From: Pirellula sp.
GTDB lineage: Bacteria > Planctomycetota > Planctomycetia > Pirellulales > Lacipirellulaceae
Assembly (NCBI GenBank): GCA_013822725.1
Contig: PNKX01000009.1
Location: forward strand, 1-64,000
DNA: 64,000 bases
Reading direction: 5' to 3'
Shown here: one piece after another, positions 4,338-43,887 of the stretch
Layout: each line of letters starts with the position of its first letter
Position numbering within the stretch: position 1 is the first letter of the stretch
Notes under the pieces: model-generated
Seen by the model: only the letters and a program-made list of their open reading frames with translations
Told to the model about the DNA's origin: nothing
The model's database searches: none
Made by a program: the position numbers and the translations under genes

Positions 4338-4362
4338 CTGACGGATAACGATTCGCTACTGC

Positions 4363-4518: not shown

Positions 4519-4658
4519 TTATCCGGCTCCAGAGGCTCGTTGAGCCGCAGCTACAGGCCGGAATTGCCATTCGGACTTCCACGGCCGGTCGCTAGAATCC
4601 TGCGTCCCCCAGCCGGCGCCAGCACTGCCGGCTGTTTCGCGGTTCTGCGAGCGCACGG

Positions 4659-5495
4659 ATGCGACGAACGACCTTCTTCACCGCCTGGCTCGCGACGGCA
4701 ACGCTCGCGCTGGGGGCGTGTCGGTCGTTCAACAGCAACCGAGCGATTGATCTCCGGCCCGGCGCCGGACAGAAGGACGCTGCGGCGTACCTGGCTCATC
4801 CGACGACGGTCGGCCAGCTCGTGTTCCACGCCGATTTCATCCTGCCGAGCGAGAATCGGCTGATCGATGAGATCGTCGCCGAGCGACAGATCATCTACGA
4901 CAAGCTGCGGCTGAAGCCGAGCGAGCGGCAGATCCACGTCCATCTCTTCGCCGATGAAGGCGACTACAAACGCCACGTCTCGCGGCGTTTTCCCGGCTTC
5001 CCCGAACGGCGGGCGATCTTCGTCGAGACCGATCGCGAACTCGCCGTCTACGCGAGTTGGGGCGAAGCGATCGCCGAAGACCTGCGGCACGAAGTCGCCC
5101 ACGGTTATCTCCACGCCTGCGTGCAGAACTTGCCGCTGTGGCTCGATGAAGGCTTGGCCGAATACTTTGAAGTCGGCCGCGGTCGCGACGGCGTGAATCA
5201 GCTCCACGTCGATTACTTGCGCGGCCAACTCGCCGTCGGCGGCTGGCGGCCGAACTTACCGCGGTTGGAGCAACTCATCGAAGCGGGCGAGCTGACGCAA
5301 CTCGACTATGCCGAGTCGTGGCTGTGGGTTCACTTTCTACTTCACTCGGAGGCTGGCCGCGAAACGCTGCTGACCGGATATCTCGCCTCGTTGCAGCCGG
5401 GGGTCCCGGCCGGTTCGCTCGCTGACTGGGTGAAGGCGAGCGTCAAGAACCCGCACGAGGCGGTGGTGGCTCATTTGCGGTCGCTGACGCCTTGA
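4659..5495 (+). CDS. DUF1570-like putative metallopeptidase lipoprotein
   Basis: Probable secreted zinc peptidase. The N-terminus (residues 1-20) is a signal peptide ending in a lipobox, LALGAC, with C21 as the lipidated cysteine. The zinc motif HEVAH is at residues 144-148 and is followed by WLDEGLAEYF, the Glu-containing third-ligand region typical of gluzincin/DUF1570 proteins common in planctomycetes. Length is 278 residues. No processing partner is adjacent and the substrate is unknown. The start ATG at 4659 gives a good signal peptide. A family A repeat follows just after the stop. Confidence 0.75.
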   Translation: MRRTTFFTAWLATATLALGACRSFNSNRAIDLRPGAGQKDAAAYLAHPTTVGQLVFHADFILPSENRLIDEIVAERQIIYDKLRLKPSERQIHVHLFADEGDYKRHVSRRFPGFPERRAIFVETDRELAVYASWGEAIAEDLRHEVAHGYLHACVQNLPLWLDEGLAEYFEVGRGRDGVNQLHVDYLRGQLAVGGWRPNLPRLEQLIEAGELTQLDYAESWLWVHFLLHSEAGRETLLTGYLASLQPGVPAGSLADWVKASVKNPHEAVVAHLRSLTP

Positions 5496-5498
5496 GGT

Positions 5499-5579
5499 CA
5501 TAAAAGCCACCGACGGTGGACGCTCTCTAAACGGGCCGCATAGCAATTCGTCCACCGGTAAAGTCGGTGGCTTTTATTG
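5499..5579. repeat. Palindromic repeat, family A, copy 2
   Basis: The arms ATAAAAGCCACCGACGGTGG and CCACCGGTAAAGTCGGTGG carry compensating differences: the left GACGGTGG arm is shortened and the right loop has AAAGTC. It starts four bases after the stop of the DUF1570 gene. Confidence 0.85.
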
Positions 5580-5640
5580 AGTCGTTTGTCTATATTTTCC
5601 CCTTTCATTGTCATCCACTCTGCATTTCTTTAGGTCCGCC

Positions 5641-6225
5641 ATGTCTTGGCAAACTGCCGATCAGTTGATCGTCAAAGAACACGTCGGATTATTCAAGTCA
5701 GCCAGCAACTACGATATCTACGACTTGGACGCCGGCGAGAAGGTACTGGAGTGTCGTGAGCCGAACCTCGGTTGGCTCACGCGGGCGCTCCGGTTCACCG
5801 ACTACAAGCGGATGACGCCGTTTGATATTCACGTCACCGACGCCCACGGCGACCTCGTCATCAAGATTGAACGCGGCATCTCGCTCTTCCTCTCGAAAGT
5901 CCGCGTTTACGACGGCAACGGTCGGCTGCTTGGCGGGTTCGAGCAAAAGCTCTTTTCGATCGGCGGCGCCTTCAATGTCCACGACGCGCAAGGGCAGACG
6001 GTGTGCCAGCTCGCCGGCAAATGGACAGGCTGGGAATTCAAGTTCACGGCCCACGGCGTCGAGTTGGCGCGCGTGACCAAGAACTGGGGCGGGATTCACA
6101 AGGAGATGTTTACCACTGCCGACAGCTACGTGCTCGACGTGGCGAACGACCTGCCGCCTGAATCGACGATTCGGAAGCTGATTCTGGGGGCCGTGTTGTG
6201 TATTGATATGGTGCTGAAGGAATGA
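5641..6225 (+). CDS. Scramblase/LURP-one-related protein
   Basis: The 194-residue protein resembles the phospholipid-scramblase/LOR tubby-like fold found in bacteria and eukaryotes. Visible features are repeated beta-strand-rich segments such as LVIKIERGISLFLSKVRVYD and LGGFEQKLFSIGGAFNVHDA, a conserved AGKWTGWEFKF segment and a C-terminal hydrophobic stretch (KLILGAVLCIDMVL). The ATG at 5641 follows AGGT and is preferred over an upstream TTG at 5608. Bacterial members are not shown to scramble lipids; a membrane or lipid-binding role is inference from the fold. The gene is monocistronic, with repeats on both sides. Confidence 0.65.
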   Translation: MSWQTADQLIVKEHVGLFKSASNYDIYDLDAGEKVLECREPNLGWLTRALRFTDYKRMTPFDIHVTDAHGDLVIKIERGISLFLSKVRVYDGNGRLLGGFEQKLFSIGGAFNVHDAQGQTVCQLAGKWTGWEFKFTAHGVELARVTKNWGGIHKEMFTTADSYVLDVANDLPPESTIRKLILGAVLCIDMVLKE

Positions 6226-22337: not shown

Positions 22338-22532
22338 GAAAGCCTCCGCTTGCTCGTTCCCCCTCTCGTGGGACGACGCGAAACAAGAGCTACATCGGCC
22401 GCAGGGGCCGGGCGAGGCCGCGAGAAAATCTAGCGGCGTGTCGCGCTGATACGACGGTCGCGCGCGGCGGTTTCGGCAGCGATTTCGCGGTCGTTACAAC
22501 CGGCAGGGTTCGGCGGGGCTTAAGTCGATGCA

Positions 22533-22734
22533 ATTGAACCGCCAAGGACGCCAAGAGCGCCAAGGGAAGACGATTACCACCAAGACACAAAGGCACTAAG
22601 GAAGCACGAAGAAAACGATAGCAAAGAAGCAGTGATTGATGACTTCGATGTTCACATGGATGCCTCTTCTTCGTGCCTTCGTGGTTAAGCATTTCCACAC
22701 GTCCTTGGCGCTCTTGGCGTCCTTGGCGGTTCAG
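22533..22734. repeat. Long nested inverted repeat, family D, copy 3
   Basis: The outer arms are GAACCGCCAAGGACGCCAAG and CTTGGCGTCCTTGGCGGTTC. The inner arms are ACGATTACCACCAAGACAC with GGAAGCACGAAG, facing CTTCTTCGTGCCTTCGTGG. It lies in the divergent gap 22338-22862. Nothing else is recognised there. Confidence 0.86.
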
Positions 22735-22862
22735 TTTTTAGGCTTGGCAGTTCCCCCCTACCTGCAGGCCGGTAAACCTTGACGGCGCCAGCGATTGTAC
22801 CTACCATGGCAGTGAAGTTTATCTGCGTGCGCCCTTTCGCCACCGCTCTTGGCGGCCCTCTG

Positions 22863-23294
22863 ATGCCCACTTCAGCCCTGATTTCCCGAGTGAATCGCAG
22901 CATCGCGCTCAGCGCGTTGCTTGCGTTTACGACGCTCGGGCTGTTCGGGCAGTCGCTTCACTCGTTGCTGCCCTGCAGCGATGCGGCCTGCGGCGTCCAT
23001 GCGAATGCGGCTGAAGAGTCTGCGTGCAGCTGCGGTCATTCGCATGCTGCCGTGGTCAAGAACGCCGCATCAGCCGAAGGCGACGAGACGGGCGCCCAAG
23101 TGAGCGCCGCTGGCCATGACGCCGAGAATTGCACGCTCTGCACGCTGCTTGCGAAGATCAAGGTCGACCGTCCCGCGCTCTTCCAAGCTCAGACGGACGT
23201 TGCGCAGTGTCAGCAGTTTGTGACGCTCGGCGAATCGCTGCTTCCGCAGGATTTGGCCCTTTCTGGGGCTCCACGCGGCCCGCCGCTGGCTTAA
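22863..23294 (+). CDS. DUF2946-like Cys/His-rich membrane-anchored protein, paralogue 1
   Basis: A 143-residue protein with an N-terminal signal or anchor helix (IALSALLAFTTLGLFGQSLH). A short Cys/His-rich stretch follows (CSDAACGVHA, SACSCGHSHAA), then a CTLCTLLAK motif and a conserved C-terminal end (SGAPRGPPLA). The CxxC-TLLA and RGPP pattern is shared with the gene at 26686, so the two are paralogues. This architecture resembles DUF2946-type small proteins. Metal binding is an inference from Cys/His content. ATGs at 22806 and a TTG at 22779 are alternative starts; 22863 gives the best signal peptide. It opens the 22.8-28.0 kb cluster. Confidence 0.6.
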   Translation: MPTSALISRVNRSIALSALLAFTTLGLFGQSLHSLLPCSDAACGVHANAAEESACSCGHSHAAVVKNAASAEGDETGAQVSAAGHDAENCTLCTLLAKIKVDRPALFQAQTDVAQCQQFVTLGESLLPQDLALSGAPRGPPLA

Positions 23295-23459
23295 CTGGCG
23301 CTCTCTCGCGCCGCGTTATTGCGCTCTCTTGCCAACGGTTGATCCGATTTTGGATCGGCTTTCAGTTTCGTTCCGTGCGCTGCGATACCGCTGCGCCGGG
23401 CGGGCAAGAGTTCCCTCCAGCTTGGTCTCGTCCTGGGTCGTCCCAGCAAGGGGTCCATC

Positions 23460-24251
23460 GTGCGCGCACGATTCCGAAACGGATTTACGCTCGTTGAGTT
23501 GTTGGTCGTCATCGCCATTATCGGCGTGTTGATCGCCCTATTGCTGCCAGCGGTGCAAGCCGCCCGCGCCGCGGCGCGGCGTTCGCAATGCGCCAACAAT
23601 CAACGGCAGATCGGCCTGGCGATCCTCCAGTACGTCGACGTCCATCGCGGCGACTTTCCGGAGATCGCGCATGGTCATGGCGACGACGGCCATGAAGAGC
23701 ACGAAGATCATGAGGATCACGAAGATCCGCACCATGACGACGAGGACGTTCGCAAGCGTTCGTGGATTTACACGTTGGCGCCATACATGGAAAACGTCGA
23801 CGCGATCCGGCTTTGCCCGGAAGATCACGCACGGCTCGAATCGACCGACGACCGGGAGACGAGTTATGCCATGAACGGCTACTTGCAGGATCCGACGAAG
23901 GCGTTTGAGACGCCCTGGCCGCCTGGATTCAGTCCGCCGGAGGGAATGACTGGAAGCTTCGAAGATCTCCTCTCGACCCACGCCACGATCATGATGTTCG
24001 AGGCGGGGGTGAAGGTGAATGAGAACTTCGACCACGTCGAATCGACGAGTTGGTTCAGTGAATACAACCTCAAGCACAACGCCGCTGAGCGCGAGGTCTT
24101 CAACGCCGTCCAGGACGACGTCGCGATTGAACGCCACAACGGGTCCGTCGCGAACTATTTGTACGCCGACGGGCATGTGCAGGCGATTTCCTCAAGCGAG
24201 ATCGCTCAGTGGTGCGACGATGGGATCAACTTCGCGAAGCCGCCGCAGTAG
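23460..24251 (+). CDS. DUF1559 prepilin-like protein with His-rich loop
   Basis: A 263-residue type II pseudopilin-like protein of the DUF1559 family greatly expanded in planctomycetes. The N-terminus carries the methylation/cleavage motif [21 protein letters not shown]. The C-terminal DUF1559 signature [18 protein letters not shown] is intact. Unusual is an insert at about residues 70-96 with eight histidines among aspartates and glutamates ([19 protein letters not shown]...), of the kind seen in zinc-binding loops. The GTG at 23460 follows AAGGGG. It is shorter than most DUF1559 proteins (300-400). Its neighbours also look metal-related. Confidence 0.85.
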
Positions 24252-24500
24252 CGGTCGGATCTTGAAGGTTCGCTGCGAGAGTGCGCCTTAGCGCCTTAGC
24301 GCCGTTATCGCCGTCGGTTGACGACGGCTTCTGTAACTCTGCGCACCTGACTTGCCAGCGCGTCACTGCCGGCTTGTCCGGCAGCGGCACGCTTACGAGC
24401 AGCGGTTCGTTACAGCGGCTCATTTCTTCGCACCGTATCTATCTCAGCATTTCATATTTGATATTTCATATTTCAAATTCACCATCGGAGTAGCTACCTC

Positions 24501-25427
24501 ATGAACGCTCAACGTTTTCACCTCCGCCTCAATGTCGCCTTACTCGCCCGCCGCGCTGGCGCGTTGGTTGCAGCGGCAATGTTCGCCGTTCACGCTTCCA
24601 TGGCCTTCGCCCATAGCGACGCGCTCCTCGTCAGCGTCGGCGGCCAGGTCGTCGTCGGCACGGCTGAGGATATCGACGGTCCCAACGAGGCGTACGCGCT
24701 CGACGCTGGACTCTTTGAATCGATTCTACGCGCTGGCTTCGCGCCGCCGACTCCTGCCGACTACGAAGGGGATGAGCCAGGATTTTTTGGCCTGCATGGC
24801 GTCAACGACGCCGACGATCTGGCCGCGCTGGGCGCCAGCGCGTTGCCGGCCGGCGCCGCTGTTTCGGGGAATTTAACGCCGTTCATTGTGAATGGCCAAC
24901 TCGACTCGCTTTTTTACTGGGACGGAGCTGGCGCCGTCGACTTCAAGCCCATTGCGATTGCCCAAGCGGGCGTCACGTTCGCCTTCCAGCCGACGGCCTT
25001 TGGTTCGACCGGCGCGAACGGCGACGTTGATGATCATCCGATCTACCAAATCAACGCAGCGGCCGGCACGCCTGCTGACGGCGTTTACTTGATCGCGCCC
25101 CAGATTAGCGTTGTGGGACTGGCGGCGTCGAAGCCCTTTTACATGGCGTTTCTCGTCGATGCGCTGATTGAGGATGAAGACGACTTGGAACTAATCGAGG
25201 CGGCTCTGGAAGGTTTCGAGGAAGGGGCGCCAGATGCGCTCGTCGATTTCGGCGGCGGCGTGACGAAGGACTTTGCGTTCTATGAAGAAGGGGTTGAGTG
25301 GATCGAGTCGAACCTCGTGGTGCCTGAGCCGACGAGTTGCGCGCTGGCGGTTATCGGCTTCGCTACGGCAGGCGCCTTCAGGCGTCGCATAACTTCAGCC
25401 CCTGGCTCCGCCAGGGGGTCGGTTTGA
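24501..25427 (+). CDS. PEP-CTERM surface protein 1 of the metal-related cluster
   Basis: A 308-residue exported protein. Signal peptide about residues 1-37 (VAAAMFAVHASMAFAHS). The mature N-terminus HSDALLVSVGGQVVVGTAED resembles that of the next gene (QHADVLVQVADGRLATGSAD), and both contain a NGQLDSLFYWDG / DGSLQNLFYWNG motif, so they are paralogues. The C-terminus has the exosortase signal VPEPTSCALAVIGFATAGAFRRR. The last ten residues (SAPGSARGSV) and the stop are encoded by a family B repeat, so the original C-terminus probably ended at the Arg cluster. Function unknown. Confidence 0.72.
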   Translation: MNAQRFHLRLNVALLARRAGALVAAAMFAVHASMAFAHSDALLVSVGGQVVVGTAEDIDGPNEAYALDAGLFESILRAGFAPPTPADYEGDEPGFFGLHGVNDADDLAALGASALPAGAAVSGNLTPFIVNGQLDSLFYWDGAGAVDFKPIAIAQAGVTFAFQPTAFGSTGANGDVDDHPIYQINAAAGTPADGVYLIAPQISVVGLAASKPFYMAFLVDALIEDEDDLELIEAALEGFEEGAPDALVDFGGGVTKDFAFYEEGVEWIESNLVVPEPTSCALAVIGFATAGAFRRRITSAPGSARGSV

Positions 25428-25483
25428 ACCCTCGCAACAAGCGGAATCAAACGTGGCGCTACCCCCCGGCGGAGCCGGGGGCT
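25397..25483. repeat. Palindromic repeat, family B, copy 3
   Basis: The arms CAGCCCCTGGCTCCGCCAGG and CCCCGGCGGAGCCGGGGGCT. It overlaps the last ten codons and the stop of the preceding PEP-CTERM gene. Confidence 0.87.
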
Positions 25484-25540
25484 AACAAACGGCGCCCATG
25501 ATTCGTGTCGACAACTCACACTTAATTTTTCGCAACTCCC

Positions 25541-26620
25541 ATGAAATCTTACATCTCGCGCGGCGTAATACGTCCTCGATCATATCGGGGCCGTCGCAGT
25601 TGGTTTCGTTCAGCAATGGTCTTGAGCGGCTTGTGGGCGCTCGTAGCCGCCGACGTTCAAGGCCAACACGCCGACGTCCTCGTGCAAGTCGCCGATGGCC
25701 GCCTCGCCACTGGCAGCGCTGACTTCGATTCTGGAGCGTGGACGCTCGGCAAACGAGTTTATTCGACCGAGTTCACCAGCATTTTTTCCGTGAACGACCC
25801 TGGCTTCAACGCGCTCGCGGCAGGCTCGCCGTCGATGCCCGCGGGCGCGTCGGCATTGCCCGGAAGCACTTCACTCCGCTGGGACTTTTTGCCCCTCAAG
25901 ATCGACGGCTCGCTGCAGAATCTGTTTTACTGGAATGGCAACGGCGCGACGGAGGGCGAAGTCGCGTTCGGGACGCTCCCTGGCCCCGATTACCGGCTTG
26001 AAGTCTACGGCCGGGACAACATCGTCGGCGTCGACGGCGCACCGTCGTTCGTTCCGGGCGACGTGATTAACAACACCACTTCGAACGGGTCGCTCCACAC
26101 GCATCGATTCTTCTATCTCGACTCGGGAAACCAGAACGCGACGACGAGTCCGGTTGACGGCATCTACCTGATGTCGCTGCGGTTGAGGATGACGGGACTC
26201 GATGCATCGCAACCGGCGTATTTCGTGTTTGGAACGCCCGGGTCGACGCTCGCGGCGTTGCGGGCGGCTGAGGCTTGGGTGACGAACCGCGTCGACGACC
26301 TGGCGCCTGATTTCGACGCCGACTTCAATGGCGACTTTATCGTCGACGGCGCCGACTTCCTCATTTGGCAGCGGAATCTGGGGGCGAGCAATGCGCTGCT
26401 CACTGCGGGTGACGCCGATCGCGACGGCACGGCCGGCGCCGGCGATTTGGCCGTGTGGCAAGAAGAGTTTGGGCTATCGCTTGAAACATTTCCCGGCGCC
26501 CAATCAACGCCCCCGGCGAGCATTGCGACTCACGCAGTTCCTGAACCAAGTGCTTTGCTCCTGGCGGTGTGTGGAATTGCCGTACTTACCGGCTTCGCCG
26601 GTGGACGAACAGCCAATTAA
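25541..26620 (+). CDS. PEP-CTERM surface protein 2 with dockerin-like repeat
   Basis: A 359-residue exported protein. An extended signal peptide covers about 1-41. The mature part shares the ADVLVQVADGRLATG and LFYWNGNG motifs with the gene upstream. Residues about 262-312 contain two calcium-loop-like dockerin repeats (DFNGDFIVDGADFLIWQRN and DADRDGTAGAGDLAVWQEE), often seen in planctomycete surface proteins. The exosortase signal VPEPSALLLAVCGIAVL ends the protein. The final residues TGFAGGRTAN come from a half copy of a family A repeat, replacing the usual Arg-rich end. Function unknown. Confidence 0.75.
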   Translation: MKSYISRGVIRPRSYRGRRSWFRSAMVLSGLWALVAADVQGQHADVLVQVADGRLATGSADFDSGAWTLGKRVYSTEFTSIFSVNDPGFNALAAGSPSMPAGASALPGSTSLRWDFLPLKIDGSLQNLFYWNGNGATEGEVAFGTLPGPDYRLEVYGRDNIVGVDGAPSFVPGDVINNTTSNGSLHTHRFFYLDSGNQNATTSPVDGIYLMSLRLRMTGLDASQPAYFVFGTPGSTLAALRAAEAWVTNRVDDLAPDFDADFNGDFIVDGADFLIWQRNLGASNALLTAGDADRDGTAGAGDLAVWQEEFGLSLETFPGAQSTPPASIATHAVPEPSALLLAVCGIAVLTGFAGGRTAN

Positions 26621-26685
26621 CCCCAATTGCGATTCCTCCCTTGGCAGAGCCTGGGGCTGCAAGACCAGTAGAACGCTTTCTTCAC

Positions 26686-27093
26686 ATGCCGCGACCCGCG
26701 ACAACCCGATCGACCACGTTCGCACTCCTCGCCCTTATGTGCTTGGTAGGCGGACTGGGCGCTGGACTGCATTCGTTGGTGCATGTCGTCGGCGGCCGCG
26801 TCGACTGCTGGTGGTACGGGGCGGCGCCCTGCTGCATCGTTCATACGTCCGGGGCGGCGGCGAGCGAGTCGCCTGACGACGGCGGCGCCTCGTTCGATAA
26901 GCGGGAAGTCGACGATCATGCGGATTGCCCGATCTGCACGTTGCTCGCGCGCTTTCACGCCCCGCCGGCGACTGTCGCCATCCATGCCACGACGGCGCTC
27001 CTTCACGCCGACGTGGCAGCTTCTGATCAGCTATTTCTCCCACGGGCGACGCCAAGCGCCCATCGGCCGCGCGGTCCTCCTGCTTGGAACTGA
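26686..27093 (+). CDS. DUF2946-like Cys/His-rich membrane-anchored protein, paralogue 2
   Basis: A 135-residue protein paralogous to the one at 22863. It has an N-terminal membrane helix (TFALLALMCLVGGLGAGL), a His/Cys-rich stretch (HSLVHVVGGRVDCWW, APCCIVHTSG), then DHADCPICTLLARFH and a terminal HRPRGPPAWN. The shared CxxC-TLLA and RGPP ending supports common ancestry. The ATG at 26686 is preferred over 26569, which would begin in repeat-like sequence. Its stop codon forms the left end of a 14-bp palindrome upstream of the next gene. Metal handling is inferred. Confidence 0.58.
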   Translation: MPRPATTRSTTFALLALMCLVGGLGAGLHSLVHVVGGRVDCWWYGAAPCCIVHTSGAAASESPDDGGASFDKREVDDHADCPICTLLARFHAPPATVAIHATTALLHADVAASDQLFLPRATPSAHRPRGPPAWN

Positions 27094-27104
27094 TTGATCA
27101 ATCA
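27091..27104. promoter_or_regulatory. 14-bp perfect palindrome, candidate operator
   Basis: TGATTGATCAATCA is a perfect dyad 59 bp before the start of the all3515-like gene. It shares TGAT...ATCA ends with the known cyanobacterial Zur box but lacks its AAT-N-ATT core. A regulator site is only a guess. Confidence 0.25.
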
Positions 27105-27162
27105 AATCGCTTCAGCGTTATCAATCATCAAGTGAATGTCACTTCCAAGAAGGAATTGCGTA

Positions 27163-28011
27163 ATGAGAAAGATTTCAACAGCCCTTGTTTCTACGTTCGC
27201 TAGTTTCGCGTTTGGTCTCCTCTTGTTCAGCGTCGCGACCGTCACGGCTCGCGCTGCCGAGCATAACTACTACCTCACGGTGGACGGTCGACCGACCCTC
27301 ACGTCGGGGACGTATACAGGGCAGGCCAACCCCAACAGCGGACGACTCACGTTACTTTATGCCCACTGGAATGATGCGACCCCGTCGTCGAATCATTTCC
27401 ACGGCATCGGCGTTTATTCGTTGACGGGAGCGGCCGACGCGCCGACGGTGCTCGACACCAACGGCAACAACCGGCTGCCTGAGACCTACACGGCTCAGGC
27501 CCCGTTGACGCTGCAGGCAGGCTCCGGCGCCTACGCCGGCAAGCTTGTCAGCGGCGAGAATGGCGAGCACTACAGCGATTTGTCGCTGTTCTCGATCCAT
27601 GACCTCGCCGCGGCGGCGACCCTCAATCCGACCAGTCCTGAAGGGTACATGTACAACAGCAACGCTGGGTACAAGAACACGCCCATGGGCGGGCTTAACC
27701 TGGCGCTGGAGATCGTTTCGATCTCGCCAGGCTTGAACGTTGGTCAAGCGGGACTGAACCAACCGGGCGACCGGTTGGCGATCGGGGGCGAGGCGAGTTG
27801 GCCGTTCGAACCGGTTTTCTGGACGGCCGACAATGCCGCACCCGGAGCCTAGTCGGCGGCGCTGCGGTTGGTCGATCAGGCGAACCTGTTCGGTTCGTCG
27901 GGGACGTTCCACGTCGACTTCGCCGTGGTGCCTGAACCGGCCGGCATTGGCATGGCGTTGATCGCCGGGCTCGGGTTCGTCGTGGCGACTTATCGTTGGC
28001 GCCGCGGGTAA
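27163..28011 (+). pseudogene. all3515-like PEP-CTERM protein interrupted by an in-frame TAG
   Basis: The frame reads a signal peptide (1-34), then AEHNYYLTVDGRPTLTSG, SGRLTLLYAHWN, SSNHFHGIGVYSLTG and NNRLPETYT. I recognise these as resembling the all3515 family of Zur-repressed PEP-CTERM proteins. At 27850-27852 a TAG ends the frame after 229 codons. Without any shift, the same frame continues as SAALRLVDQANLFGSSGTF ... VPEPAGIGMALIAGLGFVVATYRWRRG and stops at 28009-28011. The stop removes the exosortase signal. A single C-to-T change (CAG to TAG) would explain it. It could be a young pseudogene, read-through or a sequence error. The ATG at 27163 follows AAGGA. Confidence 0.75.
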
Positions 28012-35456: not shown

Positions 35457-36212
35457 TTATGCCAACGGTTCGCGATTAACGTCTTTGTAGTAGAGGTATC
35501 GCGCCGGCGTCTTCCCCATCGCGACGAACCATTGCGGGCAATACGACGCCATCCAAATGACGTCGCCCTTCTCGACCGGGTACCACGACTCGCCGAGCCG
35601 ATAGACCCCCATGCCGTCGAGCATCACGAGGCCATGCTCCATGACGTGGATCTCCACCTGCGGCAACGTCGCGCCAGGGTCGTAAGTAAAAACATTCACC
35701 GCCATGTCGTACCGTTCGTCGGTCGGCAGCAGCGTTTGGAGCCGCGCGTTATCGTCGCCCATGAAGGGGACGCCCGGCGCGTCGGCTGTCTTGCCGACGA
35801 CCGCGTCGGGCCATTCGAACGCCGCTTTTTGGTAACGCTTTTCGAAGACGACTAGATTGCTCGCCTTGATCGCCTTCAGTTCGTGAGGACGATCGGGCGG
35901 CAGGTAGGCGAAGCTCTCTGCCTCAAGCTGATGCGTCGCACCGCCGGGAAGTTTTAACGACAGCTGACCGGTGCGCACCCAGACGACGCGTTCCGTTCCT
36001 TCGCCGGCGCCGGCGGTGAAGCCACCTGCTTCTAGCGCCACGTTGGCCTGCGTGAAGCGAGCTCCCATGTGGGGCGAAATATGCACGACTCCTTTCGCCC
36101 CGCGCCAACCGGGGAGATCTTGCCACACCCAGGTATCAGGCGTGATGAGGGCGTGTTGCGCGGTGACGCGGCTGCGGGTCGTTCCGAAAACGTCCATAGC
36201 TGGCTGGCTCAT
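35457..36212 (-). CDS. allE: (S)-ureidoglycine aminohydrolase
   Basis: Bicupin enzyme that releases ammonia from ureidoglycine to give ureidoglycolate, downstream of allantoate amidohydrolase. The manganese site is visible in the C-terminal cupin: E and H in VEIHVMEHGLVML (E-x-H-x3-H) and Q in YCPQWFVAMG. The N-terminal cupin shows the usual EGTERVVWVRTGQL. 251 residues is near the family norm. The allC gene lies 27 bp upstream on the same strand, and xdhA/B are divergent, forming a purine-ring degradation locus. Confidence 0.9.
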   Translation of the reverse strand: MSQPAMDVFGTTRSRVTAQHALITPDTWVWQDLPGWRGAKGVVHISPHMGARFTQANVALEAGGFTAGAGEGTERVVWVRTGQLSLKLPGGATHQLEAESFAYLPPDRPHELKAIKASNLVVFEKRYQKAAFEWPDAVVGKTADAPGVPFMGDDNARLQTLLPTDERYDMAVNVFTYDPGATLPQVEIHVMEHGLVMLDGMGVYRLGESWYPVEKGDVIWMASYCPQWFVAMGKTPARYLYYKDVNREPLA

Positions 36213-36239
36213 CTGTGCAATTCAATGTGATCGATGGCG

Positions 36240-37493
36240 CTATGCTTCTGACGCCAGCGCGTGGATGAAATGTACCAAGACTTGCAGCCCGAGAGCCACG
36301 TCGCTTTCCTGCACCGCTTCCGCCGGGTGATGGCTCACGCCGCCGGGACTGCGCAGAAACAACATCGCCGTCGGGGCGACAGTCGCGACAACGCCGGCAT
36401 CGTGGCCGGCGCCGCTGACCATCCGCTGCGGGTCGCCAGTACAACTTGCGACCGATTTGGCCAAGCCTTCCACCAGCCGTGGGTCCATCGCCACGGCTGA
36501 GTGCTCATGCTGCCGTTCAATTCGCATGGCCAAGTTCGCGCCACGCGCCAATTCGTCGGCAAGCGTGAGCAGTTTGTCGACTGCCGCGATCCGCACGGCG
36601 TCCTCCTGATGGCGTACGTCGAGCGACGCGGTCACGCAACGCGGAATGCAGTTCGGCACGTTCGGGTCGACGCTCAGGCGGCCGACGGTCGCCACCAGGC
36701 CGGGCGTCGAGCGCGCCGCCTCTTCCACCGCCACCGCCCAGCGGCCGGCAATCGGCAGCGGGTCGTTCCGCAGGTTCATCGGCGCCGTACCGGCGTGGCC
36801 CCCCTCCCCTGCCCATTCGACCGTCAGCCGCGTCTGCCCGGCAATCGCCGTCACGACGCCCAGCGGTTCGTCGAGCGACTCCAGTAGCGGTCCCTGTTCG
36901 ATATGAGGTTCGAGATACGCGACGATGGAACCAGGCGTCGCGCTGCATGCGTCCATCGCGTGCGGATCGCAACCAAAATGATCAAGCGCCTGCGAAATAC
37001 TAACGCCCGTGTCGTCGCACAGCGTCAGCATCCCCGCGTCGAGCGTCCCCGCTAGCGCGCGACTGCCGATGAACGGCGTGCGGAAGCGCACGCCCTCTTC
37101 TTCAGAGAAGCCGATCACTTCGATCGCCCACGGCAGCGACTGATTCGACTCGCGCAGCGCCTCGACCACGGCGATGCCCATGACGACGCCGAGGATCCCG
37201 TCGTAGCGACCGGCGTCTGCCACGGTGTCGAGATGCGAGCCGATCAACACGCGCCGCTGCGGATTGCTTTCGGGCGGCAGATAGTTCCCGATGAGGTTGC
37301 CGGCCGCGTCGATGCGAACGCTCATCCCGGCCGCTTCCATCCACCCGGTAACGAGTCGATGGGCGTCGCGCATCGCCACGGAGCAGAAAGTTCGCGTGAG
37401 GCGCCCTGGTTCGTCGCTGCAACGTCCTAAGACGTCGCAGCGTTGCATCACGTCGGCGGCGAGGCGCTGCGATAGCGAACGTTCATTGACCAC
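36240..37493 (-). CDS. allC: Allantoate amidohydrolase (M20 family)
   Basis: Binuclear metal hydrolase acting on allantoate to give ureidoglycine, CO2 and ammonia. M20 metal ligands are visible: GSHLDTVADAGRYDG, FSEEEGVRF and IEQGPLLE, plus a terminal GGVSHHPAE. Length is 417 residues, normal for the family. A close alternative is N-carbamoyl-L-amino acid hydrolase, but the adjacent allE makes allantoate the preferred substrate. The start is GTG at 37493. It is transcribed divergently from xdhA. Confidence 0.88.
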   Translation of the reverse strand: MVNERSLSQRLAADVMQRCDVLGRCSDEPGRLTRTFCSVAMRDAHRLVTGWMEAAGMSVRIDAAGNLIGNYLPPESNPQRRVLIGSHLDTVADAGRYDGILGVVMGIAVVEALRESNQSLPWAIEVIGFSEEEGVRFRTPFIGSRALAGTLDAGMLTLCDDTGVSISQALDHFGCDPHAMDACSATPGSIVAYLEPHIEQGPLLESLDEPLGVVTAIAGQTRLTVEWAGEGGHAGTAPMNLRNDPLPIAGRWAVAVEEAARSTPGLVATVGRLSVDPNVPNCIPRCVTASLDVRHQEDAVRIAAVDKLLTLADELARGANLAMRIERQHEHSAVAMDPRLVEGLAKSVASCTGDPQRMVSGAGHDAGVVATVAPTAMLFLRSPGGVSHHPAEAVQESDVALGLQVLVHFIHALASEA

Positions 37494-37616
37494 AGGCGAT
37501 TCAAAGCTGATAATTGGTGTGAGGGCGGTGCGAACAGATTATAGTCACGACCTGCGGTTTTCCAAAGTTCAGCATGGAAGAGCGCGGATCACGACTATCA
37601 ACAAACAGTTCCCCTT

Positions 37617-37649
37617 TTAGCCCCCGGCTCTTCAAGCCGGGGGTTGAAC
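37617..37649. repeat. Half copy of family B repeat
   Basis: A single arm, TAGCCCCCGGCTCTTCAAGC followed by CGGGGGTTGA, upstream of xdhA in the allC-xdhA divergent region. It could form one hairpin near the promoter. Confidence 0.6.
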
Positions 37650-37662
37650 GAAGTACCCGCCC

Positions 37663-39111
37663 ATGCGCGATCACCTCCTCCTGTTCATCAACGGCCAGCG
37701 ACACGAAGTCCGCGGTCGCGATGCGTTCTTGTCGCTGTCGGATTATCTGCGCATCCGTTGCGGGTTGGTCGGCACGAAGATCGTCTGCAGCGAAGGTGAC
37801 TGCGGGGCGTGTACGACGTTGATCGGACGGACTGCTGCGTCAGCTGCTGAATTCAACTATAAGCCCCTCGATTCCTGCATCCAGTTCCTCTTTCAACTCG
37901 ACGGCACGCACGTTGTCACGGTCGAAGGGCTCCGTCGCGACGGGACGCTCAATCCGGTGCAGCAGGCGATGGTCGACTGCCATGGCTCCCAGTGCGGCTT
38001 CTGCACGCCCGGGTTCGTCATGGCGATGACCGGCTTATTGGAAGAGCAGGAAACGGTCGACGAACACCAACTGCGCACCGGCCTCACCGGCAACCTCTGC
38101 CGCTGCACCGGTTACACGCCGATTCTCGAAGCGGGGATGAAATGCCAAGACGCCGAGCACCAACGACTCGGCGAGCTTTACCCCGCCGAGCCAATGCTCG
38201 CGGAGTTTGAACGCGTCGCGAACGATTCACTTCAGCTCGAATCACAATCGTTCGGCGAACGGCAAATTGCTTGTTGTCCCGTTGCCCTCGACGACGCCCT
38301 CGAGTTTCTCGCCGCGAATCCAAACGCCACGATCGTCGCCGGCGCCACCGACATCGGCGTTCGCGCCAACAAAGCGCATCAGTTGCCGCCAGCGATTCTT
38401 GATTTGAATCGAATCGCGGACCTTGAATTCGTCAAAGCAGAATATGGCGAGCTGCGCTGCGGCGCCCGCACGAGTTGGACCACGCTGCTAGCAGCCTTCC
38501 GTCAAGCGGCGCCGGAGTTCGCCCGCATCCTCCAGCTCTTCGGCGCCCCGCAGATCCGCCATGTCGGCACCATTGCCGGCAACATTGCCAACGCCTCGCC
38601 GATCGCCGACTCGCTGCCGTTCCTCTTCGTGATGGAGGCGACGCTCGTCCTGGCGAGCAAATCTGGGCGCCGCGAGGTGAACATCAACGAGTTTTATCAC
38701 GGCTACAAGAAGCTCGAACTGCAGCCGGGCGAGTTGATCGTCGAAATCCGCATCCCATTACCGAGCGAAAGCGAGCTGCTGCGACTCTACAAAGTCTCCC
38801 GCCGCCGCGATCTCGATATCTCCGGCTTCACTGCCGCCGTAAGGATGCAACTCGAAGGCGACGCGATTAAACAAGCGAGCATCGCCTTCGGCGCCGTCGG
38901 CCCGACGGTGTTGCGGGCGAAGCAGACCGAACGCTTTCTCGTCGGCGAACCGCTCACGCTCGAAACGATGCAAACGGCCGGCGACATCGCGGTGAGCGAA
39001 GTGACGCCGATCGATGATGTCCGCGGCTCCGCCGAGTATCGCCGGCAGCTGACGCGCAATGTGCTGCTGAAGTTTTACCACCAGACGCAGGGGAATTTAG
39101 CTCAAGTATGA
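37663..39111 (+). CDS. xdhA: Xanthine dehydrogenase, Fe-S/FAD subunit
   Basis: A 482-residue small subunit of a two-component xanthine dehydrogenase. The N-terminal plant-type [2Fe-2S] has CSEGDCGAC. The helical [2Fe-2S] domain has QCGFCTPGF and NLCRCTGY. The FAD-binding domain includes GATDIGVRANK and TIAGNIANASPIADSLP, and a CO-dehydrogenase C-terminal domain follows. The xdhB gene lies 171 bp downstream. The enzyme oxidises hypoxanthine/xanthine to urate in the cytoplasm. Confidence 0.92.
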   Translation: MRDHLLLFINGQRHEVRGRDAFLSLSDYLRIRCGLVGTKIVCSEGDCGACTTLIGRTAASAAEFNYKPLDSCIQFLFQLDGTHVVTVEGLRRDGTLNPVQQAMVDCHGSQCGFCTPGFVMAMTGLLEEQETVDEHQLRTGLTGNLCRCTGYTPILEAGMKCQDAEHQRLGELYPAEPMLAEFERVANDSLQLESQSFGERQIACCPVALDDALEFLAANPNATIVAGATDIGVRANKAHQLPPAILDLNRIADLEFVKAEYGELRCGARTSWTTLLAAFRQAAPEFARILQLFGAPQIRHVGTIAGNIANASPIADSLPFLFVMEATLVLASKSGRREVNINEFYHGYKKLELQPGELIVEIRIPLPSESELLRLYKVSRRRDLDISGFTAAVRMQLEGDAIKQASIAFGAVGPTVLRAKQTERFLVGEPLTLETMQTAGDIAVSEVTPIDDVRGSAEYRRQLTRNVLLKFYHQTQGNLAQV

Positions 39112-39125
39112 GTTCAACGAGATCG

Positions 39126-39262
39126 GTTGAACCACGACGACACAACGGACACGACGGAATGCGAGAGACGCTGAGAAAGCTCTATTTCAAACTGCTTCGT
39201 TTTAAACTTTACAGTACGCCGTTGTATTTCCGTCGTGCTCGTCGTGCCGTCGCGGTGAAATG
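39126..39262. repeat. Long inverted repeat (ACCACGACGACAC type)
   Basis: The left arm GTTGAACCACGACGACACAA with CGACGGAATGC faces ATTTCCGTCGTGCTCGTCG and TGCCGTCGCGG. It lies between xdhA and xdhB and may affect coupling of the two genes. Confidence 0.65.
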
Positions 39263-39282
39263 AATTTAACGAGAATCGGAAG

Positions 39283-41631
39283 ATGCCCAGCGTAGGTACC
39301 ACCATCCCGCACGACTCCGCCGTAGGCCACGTCACCGGCCAGGCGTTTTACCTCGACGACGTCGCGGCAATGGCGGGCGAGCTCCACGTCGGGTTCGTGC
39401 CAAGTCCGATTGCCTGCGGAACGCTCACTGGCATCGACGCTACCGCGGCTCGTGCGACTCGCGGCGTCGTCGCCGTCTACACGGTTGCCGACGTGCCGGC
39501 CCACAACGTGTTCGGCCCGCTCGCCGCCGACGAACCTTTTCTTGCTGACCAGCGGCTGCTCTACGTCGGTCAGCCGGTCGCTATTGTCGCTGCGGAGACT
39601 CGCGAGGCGCTCTATCGCGGCATTGCGGCCGTGAAGCTCACTTGCGCGGAAGAGCCGCCGCTCCTTTCCTTGGAAGAGTCAATCGCCCAAGAGCGTTACC
39701 TTGGCGTCGAACGCCGCATTGCACGCGGCGGCCAGATTGATGCAGAGTTGGCCAAGGCGCCTCATCGCCTCAGCGGCACGTTCCACATCGGCGGGCAGGA
39801 GCAGTTTTATTTGGAGTCGCAGGCCGCGATCGCCTACCCCGGCGAGGAGGGCCAGATGGTCGTCCATAGCTCGACGCAGAACCCGACCGAAATTCAGACT
39901 GTCGTCGCCGAAATGCTCGGCGTCGGCTTTCACGAAGTCGTCTGCGTCACGAAGCGCATGGGAGGCGGCTTCGGCGGTAAGGAGACGCAAGCCGCGATCC
40001 CCGCGATGATGGCGGCGCTCGTCGCTCGCAAGACGGGCCGCGCCGCGCGGGTGATCTTCGACAAAGACACCGACATGATCTCGACCGGCAAGCGGCACCC
40101 GTATCTCGTCCGCTGGGAAGTCGGCTTCGAACGCGACGGTCGCATCCACGCCCTGAAGTACGACTTCTTCTCCAACGGCGGGTGCTCGCTCGACCTCTCG
40201 CCGTCGATTCTGGAGCGAACGCTGCTCCACGCCGACAACGCCTATTACATTCCGCATGCCGATTTCCGCGGCCGCATCTGCTTCACAAATCTGCCGTCGA
40301 ACACGGCATTTCGAGGCTTCGGCGGCCCGCAGGCGATGAGCGCGACCGAGAACATCATCGAGTCGATCGCCCAACATCTCGCTCTTGATGCATACGACGT
40401 CCGCCGCGCTAACGTTTACGGCGTCGCCGAGCGCAACGTCACCCCCTATGGCCAGATCGTCGAGAAAAATCACCTTCCGGAGATCTTCGCGCAGCTTGCC
40501 GCCTCGTCGCAGTACCATGCCCGCCGCGCAGAGATCGCCCGCCGCAACGCGACTGATCCGCTGACGCTCCGCGGCTTGGCGCTTACTGGCATGAAGTTCG
40601 GCATCAGTTTTACTTCGAAGTTTCTCAATCAGGGAAACGCCCTGGTGAACCTCTACACCGACGGCACCGTGCAGGTCTCCACCGGCGGCACGGAGATGGG
40701 TCAGGGGCTGAACACGAAGATCCGCCAACTCGTCGCCGATGAGTTCGGTCTCGATCCGGCTCGCGTTCGGCTGATGCCGACCTCCACTGAGAAGAACAAC
40801 AACACCTCTCCAACTGCCGCGTCGGCAAGCACCGACCTCAACGGCGCCGCCGCAGTGCGGGCCTGCCAACAGATTAAACGCCGGCTGAAAAAGTTCGCCG
40901 CCGAGCGGCTGTCGGATAAGGCCGAAGGGCTCACGCCGTCGCCGCGGCATGTCGTCTTCGCTGAGAACGCCGTCTACGATAGCCGCCGTCCCGAGCTGCG
41001 CATCGCCTTCGGCCCGCTGTGCGACGAGGCCCGCCGCGAGCGCGTCGACCTCGGCGCTCGCGGTTTCTTCGCCACGCCAGGGGTCGACTTCAATCGCGAC
41101 ACGGGCCGCGGGACGCCCTTCTTCTACTACACGCAAGGCGCCGCTGCGGTCGAGGTCGCGATTGATCGCTTCACCGGCGAGCTCACCATCCCGCGGGCCG
41201 ATCTGCTGATCGACATCGGCCGCTCGATCAATCCCGGCGTCGACCGCGGGCAGATCATCGGCGGCTTTATTCAGGGGATGGGATGGGTAACCGCCGAGGC
41301 CCTCACCTACAATGCGAAGGGGGCGCTACTCAGCCACTCGCCGACCACCTACAAGATTCCCGCAGTAACCGACGTGCCGCTCGACTTTCGGTTGGCATTG
41401 TTTGATTATAACGACAACGTCCAGAATATCCGCCGCAGTAAAGCGGTCGGCGAACCGCCGCTGATGCTCGGCATCGCGGCCTGGGCGGCGGTGAAGAATG
41501 CGTTGTCTTATGCGAGCGCCGAGGCGGCGACTTTTCTGAGTTTACCGGCAACTGGAGAGGAGATATTGCGATGTCTGACAACAGTAGCCGCGGGTCAACC
41601 CGTGCATTCTTTCAAGGGTGGCACGCCCTAA
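39283..41631 (+). CDS. xdhB: Xanthine dehydrogenase, molybdopterin-binding subunit
   Basis: A 782-residue molybdenum subunit. Motifs: GGFGGKETQ (Moco contact), NTAFRGFGGPQAM, GTEMGQGLNTKI and GEPPLMLG, whose Glu is the catalytic base in the family. The MoCo is supplied by the moaA/E/D products and inserted with XdhC help, both encoded in this window. The C-terminus KGGTP and the stop are encoded by the start of a family C repeat, so the natural C-terminus may have been changed. Confidence 0.93.
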   Translation: MPSVGTTIPHDSAVGHVTGQAFYLDDVAAMAGELHVGFVPSPIACGTLTGIDATAARATRGVVAVYTVADVPAHNVFGPLAADEPFLADQRLLYVGQPVAIVAAETREALYRGIAAVKLTCAEEPPLLSLEESIAQERYLGVERRIARGGQIDAELAKAPHRLSGTFHIGGQEQFYLESQAAIAYPGEEGQMVVHSSTQNPTEIQTVVAEMLGVGFHEVVCVTKRMGGGFGGKETQAAIPAMMAALVARKTGRAARVIFDKDTDMISTGKRHPYLVRWEVGFERDGRIHALKYDFFSNGGCSLDLSPSILERTLLHADNAYYIPHADFRGRICFTNLPSNTAFRGFGGPQAMSATENIIESIAQHLALDAYDVRRANVYGVAERNVTPYGQIVEKNHLPEIFAQLAASSQYHARRAEIARRNATDPLTLRGLALTGMKFGISFTSKFLNQGNALVNLYTDGTVQVSTGGTEMGQGLNTKIRQLVADEFGLDPARVRLMPTSTEKNNNTSPTAASASTDLNGAAAVRACQQIKRRLKKFAAERLSDKAEGLTPSPRHVVFAENAVYDSRRPELRIAFGPLCDEARRERVDLGARGFFATPGVDFNRDTGRGTPFFYYTQGAAAVEVAIDRFTGELTIPRADLLIDIGRSINPGVDRGQIIGGFIQGMGWVTAEALTYNAKGALLSHSPTTYKIPAVTDVPLDFRLALFDYNDNVQNIRRSKAVGEPPLMLGIAAWAAVKNALSYASAEAATFLSLPATGEEILRCLTTVAAGQPVHSFKGGTP

Positions 41632-41706
41632 GGTACTCCTCAGGGCGTGGTGAACCCTATACCAGCCTCCCCACGCCCTGCGGAGTACCTTCAGGGCGTG
41701 CCACCC
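41616..41706. repeat. REP-like palindrome pair, family C, copy 2
   Basis: GGGTGGCACGCCCTAAGGTA and CGGAGTACCTTCAGGGCGTG arms. Its first codons supply GGTP-stop to xdhB. It ends 45 bp before the transposase start, making the left flank of the REP-associated transposase. Confidence 0.9.
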
Positions 41707-41751
41707 AGAATTTGCTTGAATTTCGCTCCATGGTGCGGAACAATCGCATTC

Positions 41752-42336
41752 ATGCGAGTTACCGATCCCTTTACTGGTCGCGAGTACTTCAGCAAACTTC
41801 GTCGCCGATTCGACCGCGATCGAATGCCGCATGAATTAACCTTCTCATGTTATTCACGGCTCCCACTGCTGAATCGCGATCGTACCCGCCAATGGTTCGT
41901 CGACTCGCTCGCCGACGCGCGCACCAAATGGCCCATTGATGTATGGGCTTGGGTAATCATGCCCGAGCATGTTCATCTACTGGTTGCACCACGTGAGTCG
42001 AACGTCGACATTGGTCGCTTTCAGGGGAAAGTCAAAGAACGAGTCGCCCGCAACGCGATTCGATGGTTGGAAATTCATGCTCCCGAGCGGCTCCCTCGGA
42101 TAACCGTCAAGGAGGGGCCAAGAACTCGACGACGTTTCTGGCAACCAGGCGGCGGATACGATCGCAACATTACCGAGGTCGACGCTCTCTACGCCTCGCT
42201 GACATATATCCATATGAATCCTGTCAAGCGAGGCTTAGTCACGCTTCCCGAAGATTGGGCATGGTCGAGCGCTCGCTACTATGCTGGAATTAGTCCAGCG
42301 CACCTACAGATGGATCCGACGCTGCCCTCATTCTAA
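41752..42336 (+). CDS. REP-associated tyrosine transposase (RAYT, Y1_Tnp/IS200-like)
   Basis: A 194-residue HUH single-strand transposase. The metal motif HVH is at residues 73-75 in VIMPEHVHLLV. The candidate nucleophile is Y152 in the conserved YIHMNPVKRGLV segment. The C-terminal EDWAWSSARYY is characteristic of RAYTs. It is flanked on both sides by family C palindromes at 41616 and 42338; this is the arrangement of RAYT genes with their REPs. The chosen ATG lies after the left palindrome; an earlier in-frame start falls inside it. In other phyla RAYTs recognise and mobilise their own REP sequences; whether this one is active is unknown. Confidence 0.88.
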   Translation: MRVTDPFTGREYFSKLRRRFDRDRMPHELTFSCYSRLPLLNRDRTRQWFVDSLADARTKWPIDVWAWVIMPEHVHLLVAPRESNVDIGRFQGKVKERVARNAIRWLEIHAPERLPRITVKEGPRTRRRFWQPGGGYDRNITEVDALYASLTYIHMNPVKRGLVTLPEDWAWSSARYYAGISPAHLQMDPTLPSF

Positions 42337-42337
42337 A

Positions 42338-42393
42338 ACGCCCTAAGGTACTCCGCAGGGCGTGGTGAACCCGTATCAGCCTTTCCACGCCCC
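42338..42393. repeat. REP-like palindrome, family C, copy 3 (truncated)
   Basis: It starts as ACGCCCTAAGGTACTCCGCA and continues through GGTGAACCCGTATCAGCC, but breaks off at CCACGCCC. This is the right flank of the transposase gene. Confidence 0.8.
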
Positions 42394-42402
42394 GAGCAAC
42401 GC

Positions 42403-42990
42403 TTACTTCTGGAGCGCCTTCAACACATCGGCCGCTTCGGCGCGGTCGCCGTGCGACTTGCTGACCTTGCGAAACGTCACCTTGCCGTCGCTGTCGACGA
42501 TGAACGTTGAGGGATACGCCGTTTCGTTCAGGGCCTCCCACCGCAAGCCAGCCGCGGTGACGAATTTCTGATCGGGATCGAGCACCAGCGTTAGCGGCCC
42601 CGGCAATTCGGTCTCTTTCAAAAACTCCTGGGCTCGCGTTTCCAGTTCCTTCGCCTCACCCGGATAGACGAATACCACCGTCGCTCCCGCCTTCGCGAAC
42701 TCGTCGGCCAGTTTGACGTATCCGCCGACTTGACGCGTGCAGGCGGGGCATTGGTAGCCGGGATAGCCGCGCAGTACGGCAACCACGACGGGCCCCTCTT
42801 TAAGCAGTTTCTTCAGTTCAACCTTCTCGCCGTCGAGGGATTGCAGCGTGAACATCTCCGCCATGTCGCCGATTTTTGGGGGAGCCTTTGCTGCCGGCTT
42901 GGCCGACTCGTCCGCGCGCATCGCACCGCTGGTGATAATAATGGAGAGTGTTGCAACGAGCGTGCGAAAATAGGTGGGAACGAATCGCAT
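42403..42990 (-). CDS. Exported peroxiredoxin-like protein
   Basis: A 195-residue AhpC/TSA-family protein with a signal peptide (about 1-26). The thioredoxin fold is recognised by GDMAEMFTLQSLDGEKVEL, a peroxidatic-type Cys in RGYPGYQCPACTRQ, and YPSTFIVDSDGKV. The resolving Cys may be the second Cys of CPAC. It sits between the transposase gene and xdhC, so it may have been placed there by rearrangement; its link to purine metabolism is unclear. Confidence 0.8.
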   Translation of the reverse strand: MRFVPTYFRTLVATLSIIITSGAMRADESAKPAAKAPPKIGDMAEMFTLQSLDGEKVELKKLLKEGPVVVAVLRGYPGYQCPACTRQVGGYVKLADEFAKAGATVVFVYPGEAKELETRAQEFLKETELPGPLTLVLDPDQKFVTAAGLRWEALNETAYPSTFIVDSDGKVTFRKVSKSHGDRAEAADVLKALQK

Positions 42991-43059
42991 GATGCGGCTC
43001 CTGAGGTAGACTGGGGACTGGAATTCACCGGCAGTTTATCGCGATTGCAGACTTAGACG

Positions 43060-43887
43060 ATGGGCGCCCCTCACGGTTACATCGAACGGCTCGCCGAACT
43101 CGCCGCTAGCGGCGCCCCGTTCGCCAGCGTCATGCTCGTCGACGTCGTCGGCAGCACGCCGGCGGACGTAGGGAGCAAAATGCTCGTCACCGCGGCGGGG
43201 CTCGACTTCGGCACCGTCGGCGGCGGCCGCGTCGAAGCGCAAGCGATCGCCGAAGCCCAGCGTCTCCTCAGCGAGCCGGGGGGTTCATCCCCCCGGCCGT
43301 TGCTGCTGGAATGGAATCTCCAACGCGACGTCGGCATGACCTGCGGCGGAGTGGTCAAGCTTTTTTTCGAACTCTATAACCACAACCAGTGGCAGATCGC
43401 GATCTTCGGCGCCGGCCATGTCGCCGCCGCGGTGATCCGCTGCCTGCTCCCCCTCCCCTGCCGCATCGCGTGCATCGACCCGCGCGCCGATTGGCTGGCC
43501 AAGCTCCCCGACGATCCGCGGCTGCGAAAAGTCTGCGCCGTCGACCCGCCCGCCGAAGTCGCGTCGCTCCCTGCCGCGGCGTTCGTCCTCTGCATGACGA
43601 TGGGCCACCGCACTGATCGGCCGATTCTGCAAGAGGTTTTCCGCCAAGATCGCCGTTTTCCCTACCTCGGCGTGATCGGCAGCGCGGCGAAGCGGGCCGT
43701 GCTGCGGCGGGAACTACTGGCCGCCGGCGTGTCCGTTGAACAAGCCGACTCGTTCCGCTGCCCGATCGGCTTGCCGATTGGCACCAACCTACCTGGGGAG
43801 ATTGCGATCAGCGTCGTCGCGCAACTGTTGCAAGAGCGCGACGCCCTAGTGCGTTCCACTTCAGCCCCCGGCTCCGCCGGGGGGTAG
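43060..43887 (+). CDS. xdhC: XdhC-family molybdenum cofactor insertion chaperone
   Basis: A 275-residue protein of the XdhC/CoxI family that helps load sulfurated Moco into xanthine dehydrogenase. N-terminal motifs GTVGGGRVEAQAI and VGMTCGGVVKLF, and a Rossmann-like IAIFGAGHVAAAVIRCL, are typical. The last eight residues (SAPGSAGG) and stop come from a family B repeat. It follows xdhA/xdhB, separated by the transposase and the peroxiredoxin gene. Confidence 0.88.
   Translation: MGAPHGYIERLAELAASGAPFASVMLVDVVGSTPADVGSKMLVTAAGLDFGTVGGGRVEAQAIAEAQRLLSEPGGSSPRPLLLEWNLQRDVGMTCGGVVKLFFELYNHNQWQIAIFGAGHVAAAVIRCLLPLPCRIACIDPRADWLAKLPDDPRLRKVCAVDPPAEVASLPAAAFVLCMTMGHRTDRPILQEVFRQDRRFPYLGVIGSAAKRAVLRRELLAAGVSVEQADSFRCPIGLPIGTNLPGEIAISVVAQLLQERDALVRSTSAPGSAGG

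Follow-up and report, generated by a model that had tools for sequence, protein, structure and literature searches.

We analysed a window of 64,000 nucleotides of Pirellula sp. DNA (contig PNKX01000009.1, positions 1 to 64,000), in which six consecutive open reading frames (ORFs) occupy the + strand at 22863-28011. We refer to them as cys1, pil, pepA, pepB, cys2 and zepA: two encode small Cys/His-rich proteins (cys), one a prepilin (pil), two PEP-CTERM-like proteins (pep), and the last belongs to the all3515 (ZepA) family. Our main finding is that this ZepA locus lies behind a recurrent gene set, cys-pil-pepA-pepB, whose products are predicted to be located at the cell surface and would likely bind and pass on zinc; we place the probability of this reading at about 0.55. 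Judged by comparison with related genomes, the cys-pil-pepA-pepB set is a real, recurrent unit. A zinc role appears well supported for the copies of the set that are tied to zepA, to a FUR-family gene or to a candidate regulatory box, and only plausible for the remaining copies. In the window genome, the proposed role is based on homology to ZepA and orthology with relatives.

The window zepA scored 226.8 bits against the profile NF040463 ("all3515 family Zur-repressed PEP-CTERM protein"; cut-off 75). The zinc site H-x9-H-F-H is present in its product, and the three His of this site and one Glu were invariant across 19 sequences. All3515 was named ZepA in 2024 (PLoS Biol, PMC10957091). According to the parts of that paper available to us, Anabaena ZepA is an exoprotein and a direct target of the zinc uptake regulator Zur that aids zinc uptake, in agreement with the initial annotation, which had described the family as Zur-repressed in Nostoc. 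Zinc binding and growth that depends on zinc have been published for the Anabaena protein. ZepA homologues of three other groups, the PVC superphylum included, behaved alike in an E. coli test, the published zinc site is H-X2-9-H-F/Y-H, PEP-CTERM and FUR-family genes are reported as neighbours, and a model of Lacipirellula limnantheis ZepA is given (PMC10957091). The window gene resembles this published system in family, zinc site and such neighbours; it differs in carrying an in-frame stop and in its partners, since prepilin, pilin, DUF1559 and DUF2946 are not mentioned in the main text as available to us. Because ZepA has already been published, the zinc link through it is not new, and the earlier suggestion of an undescribed system holds for the prepilin/Cys-His/PEP-CTERM set, for which a literature search, mostly at the level of result lists, found no description.

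The zepA body (27163..27852, +) closes at an in-frame TAG (27850-27852), and the remainder behind the stop (27853..28011, same frame) carries the PEP-CTERM-like end. The proposed all3515-like PEP-CTERM gene was therefore confirmed in its family and not as one ORF to 28011. The family match continues through the single TAG, and the remainder alone matched our zepA profile at 48 bits. A hydrophobic stretch was seen by eye at the N-terminus of the window ZepA; owing to the TAG, if it is real, the protein would lack its sorting signal in this assembly. The six best homologues were 87-91% identical, 277-282 aa long and full length, indicating that intact zepA copies exist.

Conservation of the neighbourhood was assessed in a family sample of 43 genomes and a phylum sample of 392 genomes. 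zepA was found in 17 of the 43 family genomes, and one further genome of the phylum sample exceeded the cut-off. We read 18 family zepA loci (17 fetched plus the window). Within 5 kb of zepA, we found pep-type genes at 16 of the 18 loci, the island prepilin clade (at least 300 bits) at 13, a generic prepilin (104 bits) at another one, cys-type ORFs at 12 and FUR-family genes at six. The relatives with the locus include Botrimarina, Aeoliella and Lacipirellula. The initial annotation had proposed a neighbourhood search for the prepilin and all3515-like pair, with lack of conservation as its refutation; the neighbourhood proved to be conserved. The cys-type ORF precedes pil in relatives and also lies between pepB and zepA in several of them. 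Outside the family, genome G398 carried pil (59 bits), pep (142 bits), zepA and FUR in this order. Botrimarina colliarenosi ZepA shares 56% identity with the ZepA of G398 and 35% with the window ZepA.

At the site syntenic with the window, defined by CBS, aminopeptidase-like, d28198 or thioredoxin-like neighbours, the set was found in different states: cys-pil-pepA-pepB with zepA absent (G001), cys-pil-pep-pep plus a box (G002), and pep-pep-pil with zepA, FUR and boxes (G011). The zepA label, which covers both prepilins of locus L023, was mapped onto a tree comprising 54 prepilins. Well-supported branches forced eight changes of this label; the mean after shuffling was 14, and none of 500 shuffles was as low. 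These results indicate several events in which zepA was either gained beside the set or lost from there.

The set was also found away from zepA. With a strict prepilin profile, 56 matches were obtained, spread over 27 of the 43 family genomes at one to four clade members each; this is a lower bound because at most 60 candidates were scored per genome. We fetched 17 of the 18 prepilin matches above 260 bits that lie away from zepA. Two pep genes lay within 3 kb of pil in 15 of the 17, a cys-type ORF was present in 15 (one at 16 bits), and 13 had both. Matches to the pep profile were obtained in at least 22 of the 392 genomes of the phylum sample, a lower bound with about 6-7 candidates scored per genome; 20 of these were genomes other than the window genome and G398, and we fetched loci from 15 of the 20, chosen by pep alone. 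A same-strand prepilin-type gene lay within 400 bp of pep in 13 of these 15 distant loci, and in the other two the prepilin match was about 1 kb away or overlapping in the mechanical ORFs. In G227, a genome far from the family, FUR, cys, pil and pep follow one another in a single run from which zepA is absent, and the cys ORF scored 22.1 bits to DUF2946 (cut-off 23.7); in G284 a FUR gene lay about 1.9 kb before pil; the other 13 loci had no FUR gene by profile, and this profile (fur2) could miss a divergent one. The pil2, pep2 and fur2 profiles were partly trained on loci later scored (for pil2, 3 of the 15 distant loci), and overlapping frames (L043, L099, L103, L116 and L125) escape the pairing rule.

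Several neighbours of such copies were recorded. The window genome has a second, more distant pep-pil-pep copy (G000:C35, locus L110; prepilin 219 bits). The zepA-free copies L096 (G001) and L097 (G002) adjoin HupE/UreJ_2 genes, L096 also with a DUF4331 gene bearing PEP-CTERM and L097 with a DUF4331-like neighbour by eye. At L116 (G384), the direct neighbour of a pep gene encodes a membrane protein of the MerC family (86 bits; 5186-5809).

The upstream palindromes of relatives yielded TGCAATNNNATTGCA, which we regard as their candidate Zur box. The exact box occurred at 29 distinct sites in 16 of the 43 genomes, and the reversed control gave none. By our own sorting, 10 sites lay within 5 kb of zepA, three at pil/pep genes without zepA (L074, L077 and L082), four at FUR/ZigA-like or PTPS/COG0523 genes (L076, L078 twice and L083; COG0523/PTPS named by Pfam at L078 and by eye at L083), one before a distant ZepA-like gene (L075), and one before an unknown Cys-containing protein (L078), so that 18 of the 29 were at zepA, pil/pep, FUR/ZigA-like, PTPS/COG0523 or ZepA-like genes. 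At L075 (G003, 4026-5013), the box stands just before a PEP-CTERM-type protein with 39 bits to the zepA profile and 19 bits to NF040463. A ZigA-like GTPase gene (594 bits, cut-off 600) was divergent from a FUR gene of a second type, with the box between them. The box was present in 10 of the 11 genomes with second-type FUR and in 6 of the 32 without (Fisher p = 4e-5), and zepA in 9 of the 11 and 8 of the 32 (p = 0.0015). This set of 11 is the type found by our own profile, and leaves out the extra FUR matches of G006, G020, G030, G002:C5:20757, G019:C129, G033:C334 and others.

Zur regulons are known with COG0523/ZigA and QueD-type paralogues. The relatives resemble them in that the box and second-type FUR adjoin ZigA-like and PTPS/COG0523 genes; they differ in that surface prepilin and PEP-CTERM-like proteins are added here, and the window genus lacks the arrangement. 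Besides the ZepA paper, no description of such a box or of a planctomycete zinc uptake regulator was found in a literature search at result-list level, and neither the zepA-free gene sets nor the TGCAATNNNATTGCA box appears in the sections of PMC10957091 examined. The co-occurrence with ZnuABC or Zur genes that the initial annotation had looked to for support was seen in part, as the FUR genes at six of the 18 zepA loci and the shared palindrome of relatives.

The individual genes were then considered; the ORF calls in our scripts are mechanical. The six same-strand genes, present as the initial annotation described, are separated by intergenic gaps of 65-249 bases. The cys-pil-pepA-pepB set is likely one operon. 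A candidate promoter, TTGACG-17-TACCAT (22779..22807, +), which is a consensus match only, lies upstream of cys1 and was kept in all three compared loci of the genus. Palindromes upstream of the window zepA were dropped, as they were not conserved in both sister loci, and in a search for an upstream word common to the compared operon starts, the best 9-mer was present in five of them.

The prepilin gene pil (23460..24251, +, GTG start) passed both PF07596/DUF1559 (62.9 bits, cut-off 23.3) and the N_methyl family PF07963 (31.4 bits, cut-off 21.2), and the acidic loop with eight His that had been noted earlier was counted. An AlphaFold2 model (predicted local distance difference test, pLDDT, 88.7) included the long helix at the N-terminus, and the His loop (about 71-95) was modelled with low confidence. 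Island prepilins share the N-methylation motif and a DUF1559 domain above cut-off with other planctomycete DUF1559 (SBP_bac_10) prepilins; unlike them, they make up a separate clade, marked by invariant residues of its own, and are tied to pep genes.

The genes pepA (24501..25427, +) and pepB (25541..26620, +) are paralogues, with 25% identity over the common domain. Their earlier designation as paralogous PEP-CTERM proteins held for the paralogy; neither reached the PF07589 cut-off of 20.7, as pepA scored 18.0 bits with a VPEP-hydrophobic-basic end seen by eye, and pepB gave no match, with a PEP motif, hydrophobic stretch and basic end seen by eye. PepA has His-Ser-Asp near the likely mature N-terminus and a DDH motif. 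PepB has QHxD and HxH motifs, in which H186 and H188 were invariant in 53 aligned sequences and Q42, H43 and D45 at least 90% conserved; Sec cleavage near residue 41, placed by eye, would leave His at or near the new N-terminus. The dockerin-like part of PepB was weak (21.4 bits, under 22.9), and its main part had no Pfam match. Its predicted model was confident (pLDDT 86.9) and beta-rich; a fold search of the PDB gave no convincing solved relative beyond the dockerin part, and a PDB sequence search gave that part only, chance-level matches aside. Weak fold matches other than the dockerin part, namely FimH-like lectin domains (template modelling score at most 0.38) and a pilin helix, were left unused. 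The genome has an exosortase (PF09721, 195.1 bits, at G000:C25).

The Cys/His-rich genes cys1 (22863..23294, +) and cys2 (26686..27093, +, between pepB and zepA) encode proteins with CxxC-TLLA and a PRGPP tail in common; the Cys1 protein, which also has an HSH motif, is predicted to be exported or in the membrane. Scores of 19.9 (cys1) and 19.7 bits (cys2) were below the PF11162/DUF2946 cut-off of 23.7, so that "DUF2946-like", as in the initial annotation, is correct and "DUF2946" is not; a DUF2946 search of the window genome gave no match at E 0.001. DUF2946 proteins appear in Zur- or chelator-response tables, in the parts of the sources available to us: Caulobacter CC1775 and CC2720 are among the down-regulated genes of a Zur-regulon table (PMC4176598), and P. 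aeruginosa PA0433 adjoins a TonB receptor in an expression table under N-acetylcysteine (PMC9431628). The window pair is of this type and differs in lying below the Pfam cut-off and within a prepilin/PEP-CTERM set.

A number of results weigh against a zinc role of the set. The window zepA is broken in this assembly. No exact TGCAATNNNATTGCA box was found at the window locus, and the best candidate had three mismatches; the 11 box-like sites of the window all had three mismatches and were fewer than the 15.8 expected by chance, and on this basis we rejected the presence of the relatives' box in the window. The genus (G034-G038) has at most one FUR gene per genome and no exact box at the locus, including the near-complete sisters G034 and G035 with one FUR each, and its single exact site (G035) falls within an unrelated ORF. 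A single FUR gene was present in the window genome (86% complete), on a contig other than that of the locus, and the full island is likewise accompanied by one FUR gene in G039 and in Botrimarina and its genus (G007-G009). Among the 29 exact sites, 10 were in unrelated or unclear places. ZnuA was found in 34 of the 43 family genomes, was not near any of their zepA loci, and had no match in the window assembly, so that ZnuA at the locus was tried and not found. The extended His/acidic loop occurred in three of 14 aligned island prepilins; the loop was accordingly ruled out as a defining mark and is a variable extra, and the initial view of such loops as typical of zinc uptake proteins was not supported here. 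Neither the prepilin nor PepB gave a PDB fold or sequence match naming a metal-binding fold. The prepilin was absent from all seven ZepA loci that came from Nitrospira, cyanobacteria and Verrucomicrobia, one of which gave a weak pep match (49 bits).

The rival explanations differ in how they treat these points. Chance neighbourhood of abundant planctomycete surface genes, among which DUF1559 prepilins and PEP-CTERM proteins are numerous, could draw on the 93 first-look prepilin candidates in the window genome; the prepilin within 400 bp in 13 of 15 distant loci picked by pep alone, and the two pep genes near pil in 15 of 17 zepA-free family loci, largely refute it, and we rejected it as very improbable. 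More serious is the possibility that ZepA handles zinc while cys-pil-pep-pep is a general surface system for metals or other ligands, with a metal or purpose particular to each copy, which zepA joined in some cases. The wide occurrence of the prepilin clade (27 of 43 genomes, as a lower bound) fits this, as do the 17 zepA-free family copies, which had zepA in none, a FUR gene in none by profile and even a relaxed box in one, and so may serve another metal. Some copies adjoin HupE/UreJ_2, DUF4331 or, in a distant genome, RND pump genes, and the neighbours at L096 and L097 hint at another metal or role. On the other side, some zepA-free copies have FUR (L115 and L117) or the box (L074 and L077; relaxed at L107), and linkage to zepA was repeatedly gained or lost; we consider this explanation rather unlikely.

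Acidic His-rich loops are suited to low-affinity metal buffering, and the module might act at the surface as a store or buffer for zinc (or another metal) present in excess, protecting the cell, and not aid uptake. The DUF2946 protein CC2720, down-regulated in the Zur-regulon table, also heads the Caulobacter czr/zntA efflux cluster in the part of that source available to us (PMC4176598), which would suit such a function. Against it, Anabaena ZepA aids uptake as a direct Zur target (PMC10957091), and the candidate boxes are common to zinc-starvation-type genes, leaving buffering improbable.

If the cys-pil-pepA-pepB set does bind zinc and hand it on, it may act as follows. Zinc shortage would relieve repression by the second FUR, a putative Zur, in relatives possessing one. 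The PEP-CTERM-like proteins and ZepA would be exported by Sec, processed by the exosortase of the genome, and either retained at the surface or released there; zinc could then be caught by their HxD, HxH and H-x9-HFH ligands. The prepilin may join a type II secretion or type IV-like pseudopilus and present a metal-binding face, the small Cys/His protein might relay or sense the metal in the periplasm, and the inner-membrane step would be made by ZnuABC, encoded elsewhere in most related genomes, as judged by the ZnuA gene. A bolder version is tentative and, in our view, doubtful: a widespread planctomycete zinc-scavenging surface organelle, in which pairs of PEP-CTERM proteins with N-terminal His, together with a Cys/His relay protein, would load a metal-binding pseudopilus built of the dedicated prepilin clade, with the ancient exoprotein ZepA plugged in several times, under a planctomycete Zur reading TGCAATNNNATTGCA.

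Other features of the window were also observed. A 34-nt inverted repeat (22532-22565 and 22703-22736, 97% complementary) ends some 130 bases before cys1 and encloses a second, partial pair. At 35457-43887, a purine-degradation cluster was recognized by eye (ureidoglycine aminohydrolase-, allantoate amidohydrolase- and xanthine dehydrogenase-like genes), within which a REP-type transposase-like gene is located.

The route by which ZepA hands on zinc is stated as unknown in the ZepA paper, in the parts available to us (PMC10957091). The cys-pil-pepA-pepB set provides named candidate partners for this hand-over, namely the prepilin, PepA/PepB and the Cys/His protein. Named strains exist for the genus that carries the set, and with the candidate box a planctomycete zinc regulon can be put to the test. 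If the proposed role is true, a prepilin dedicated to metal capture would, as far as we know, be a new use of type IV-like pili.

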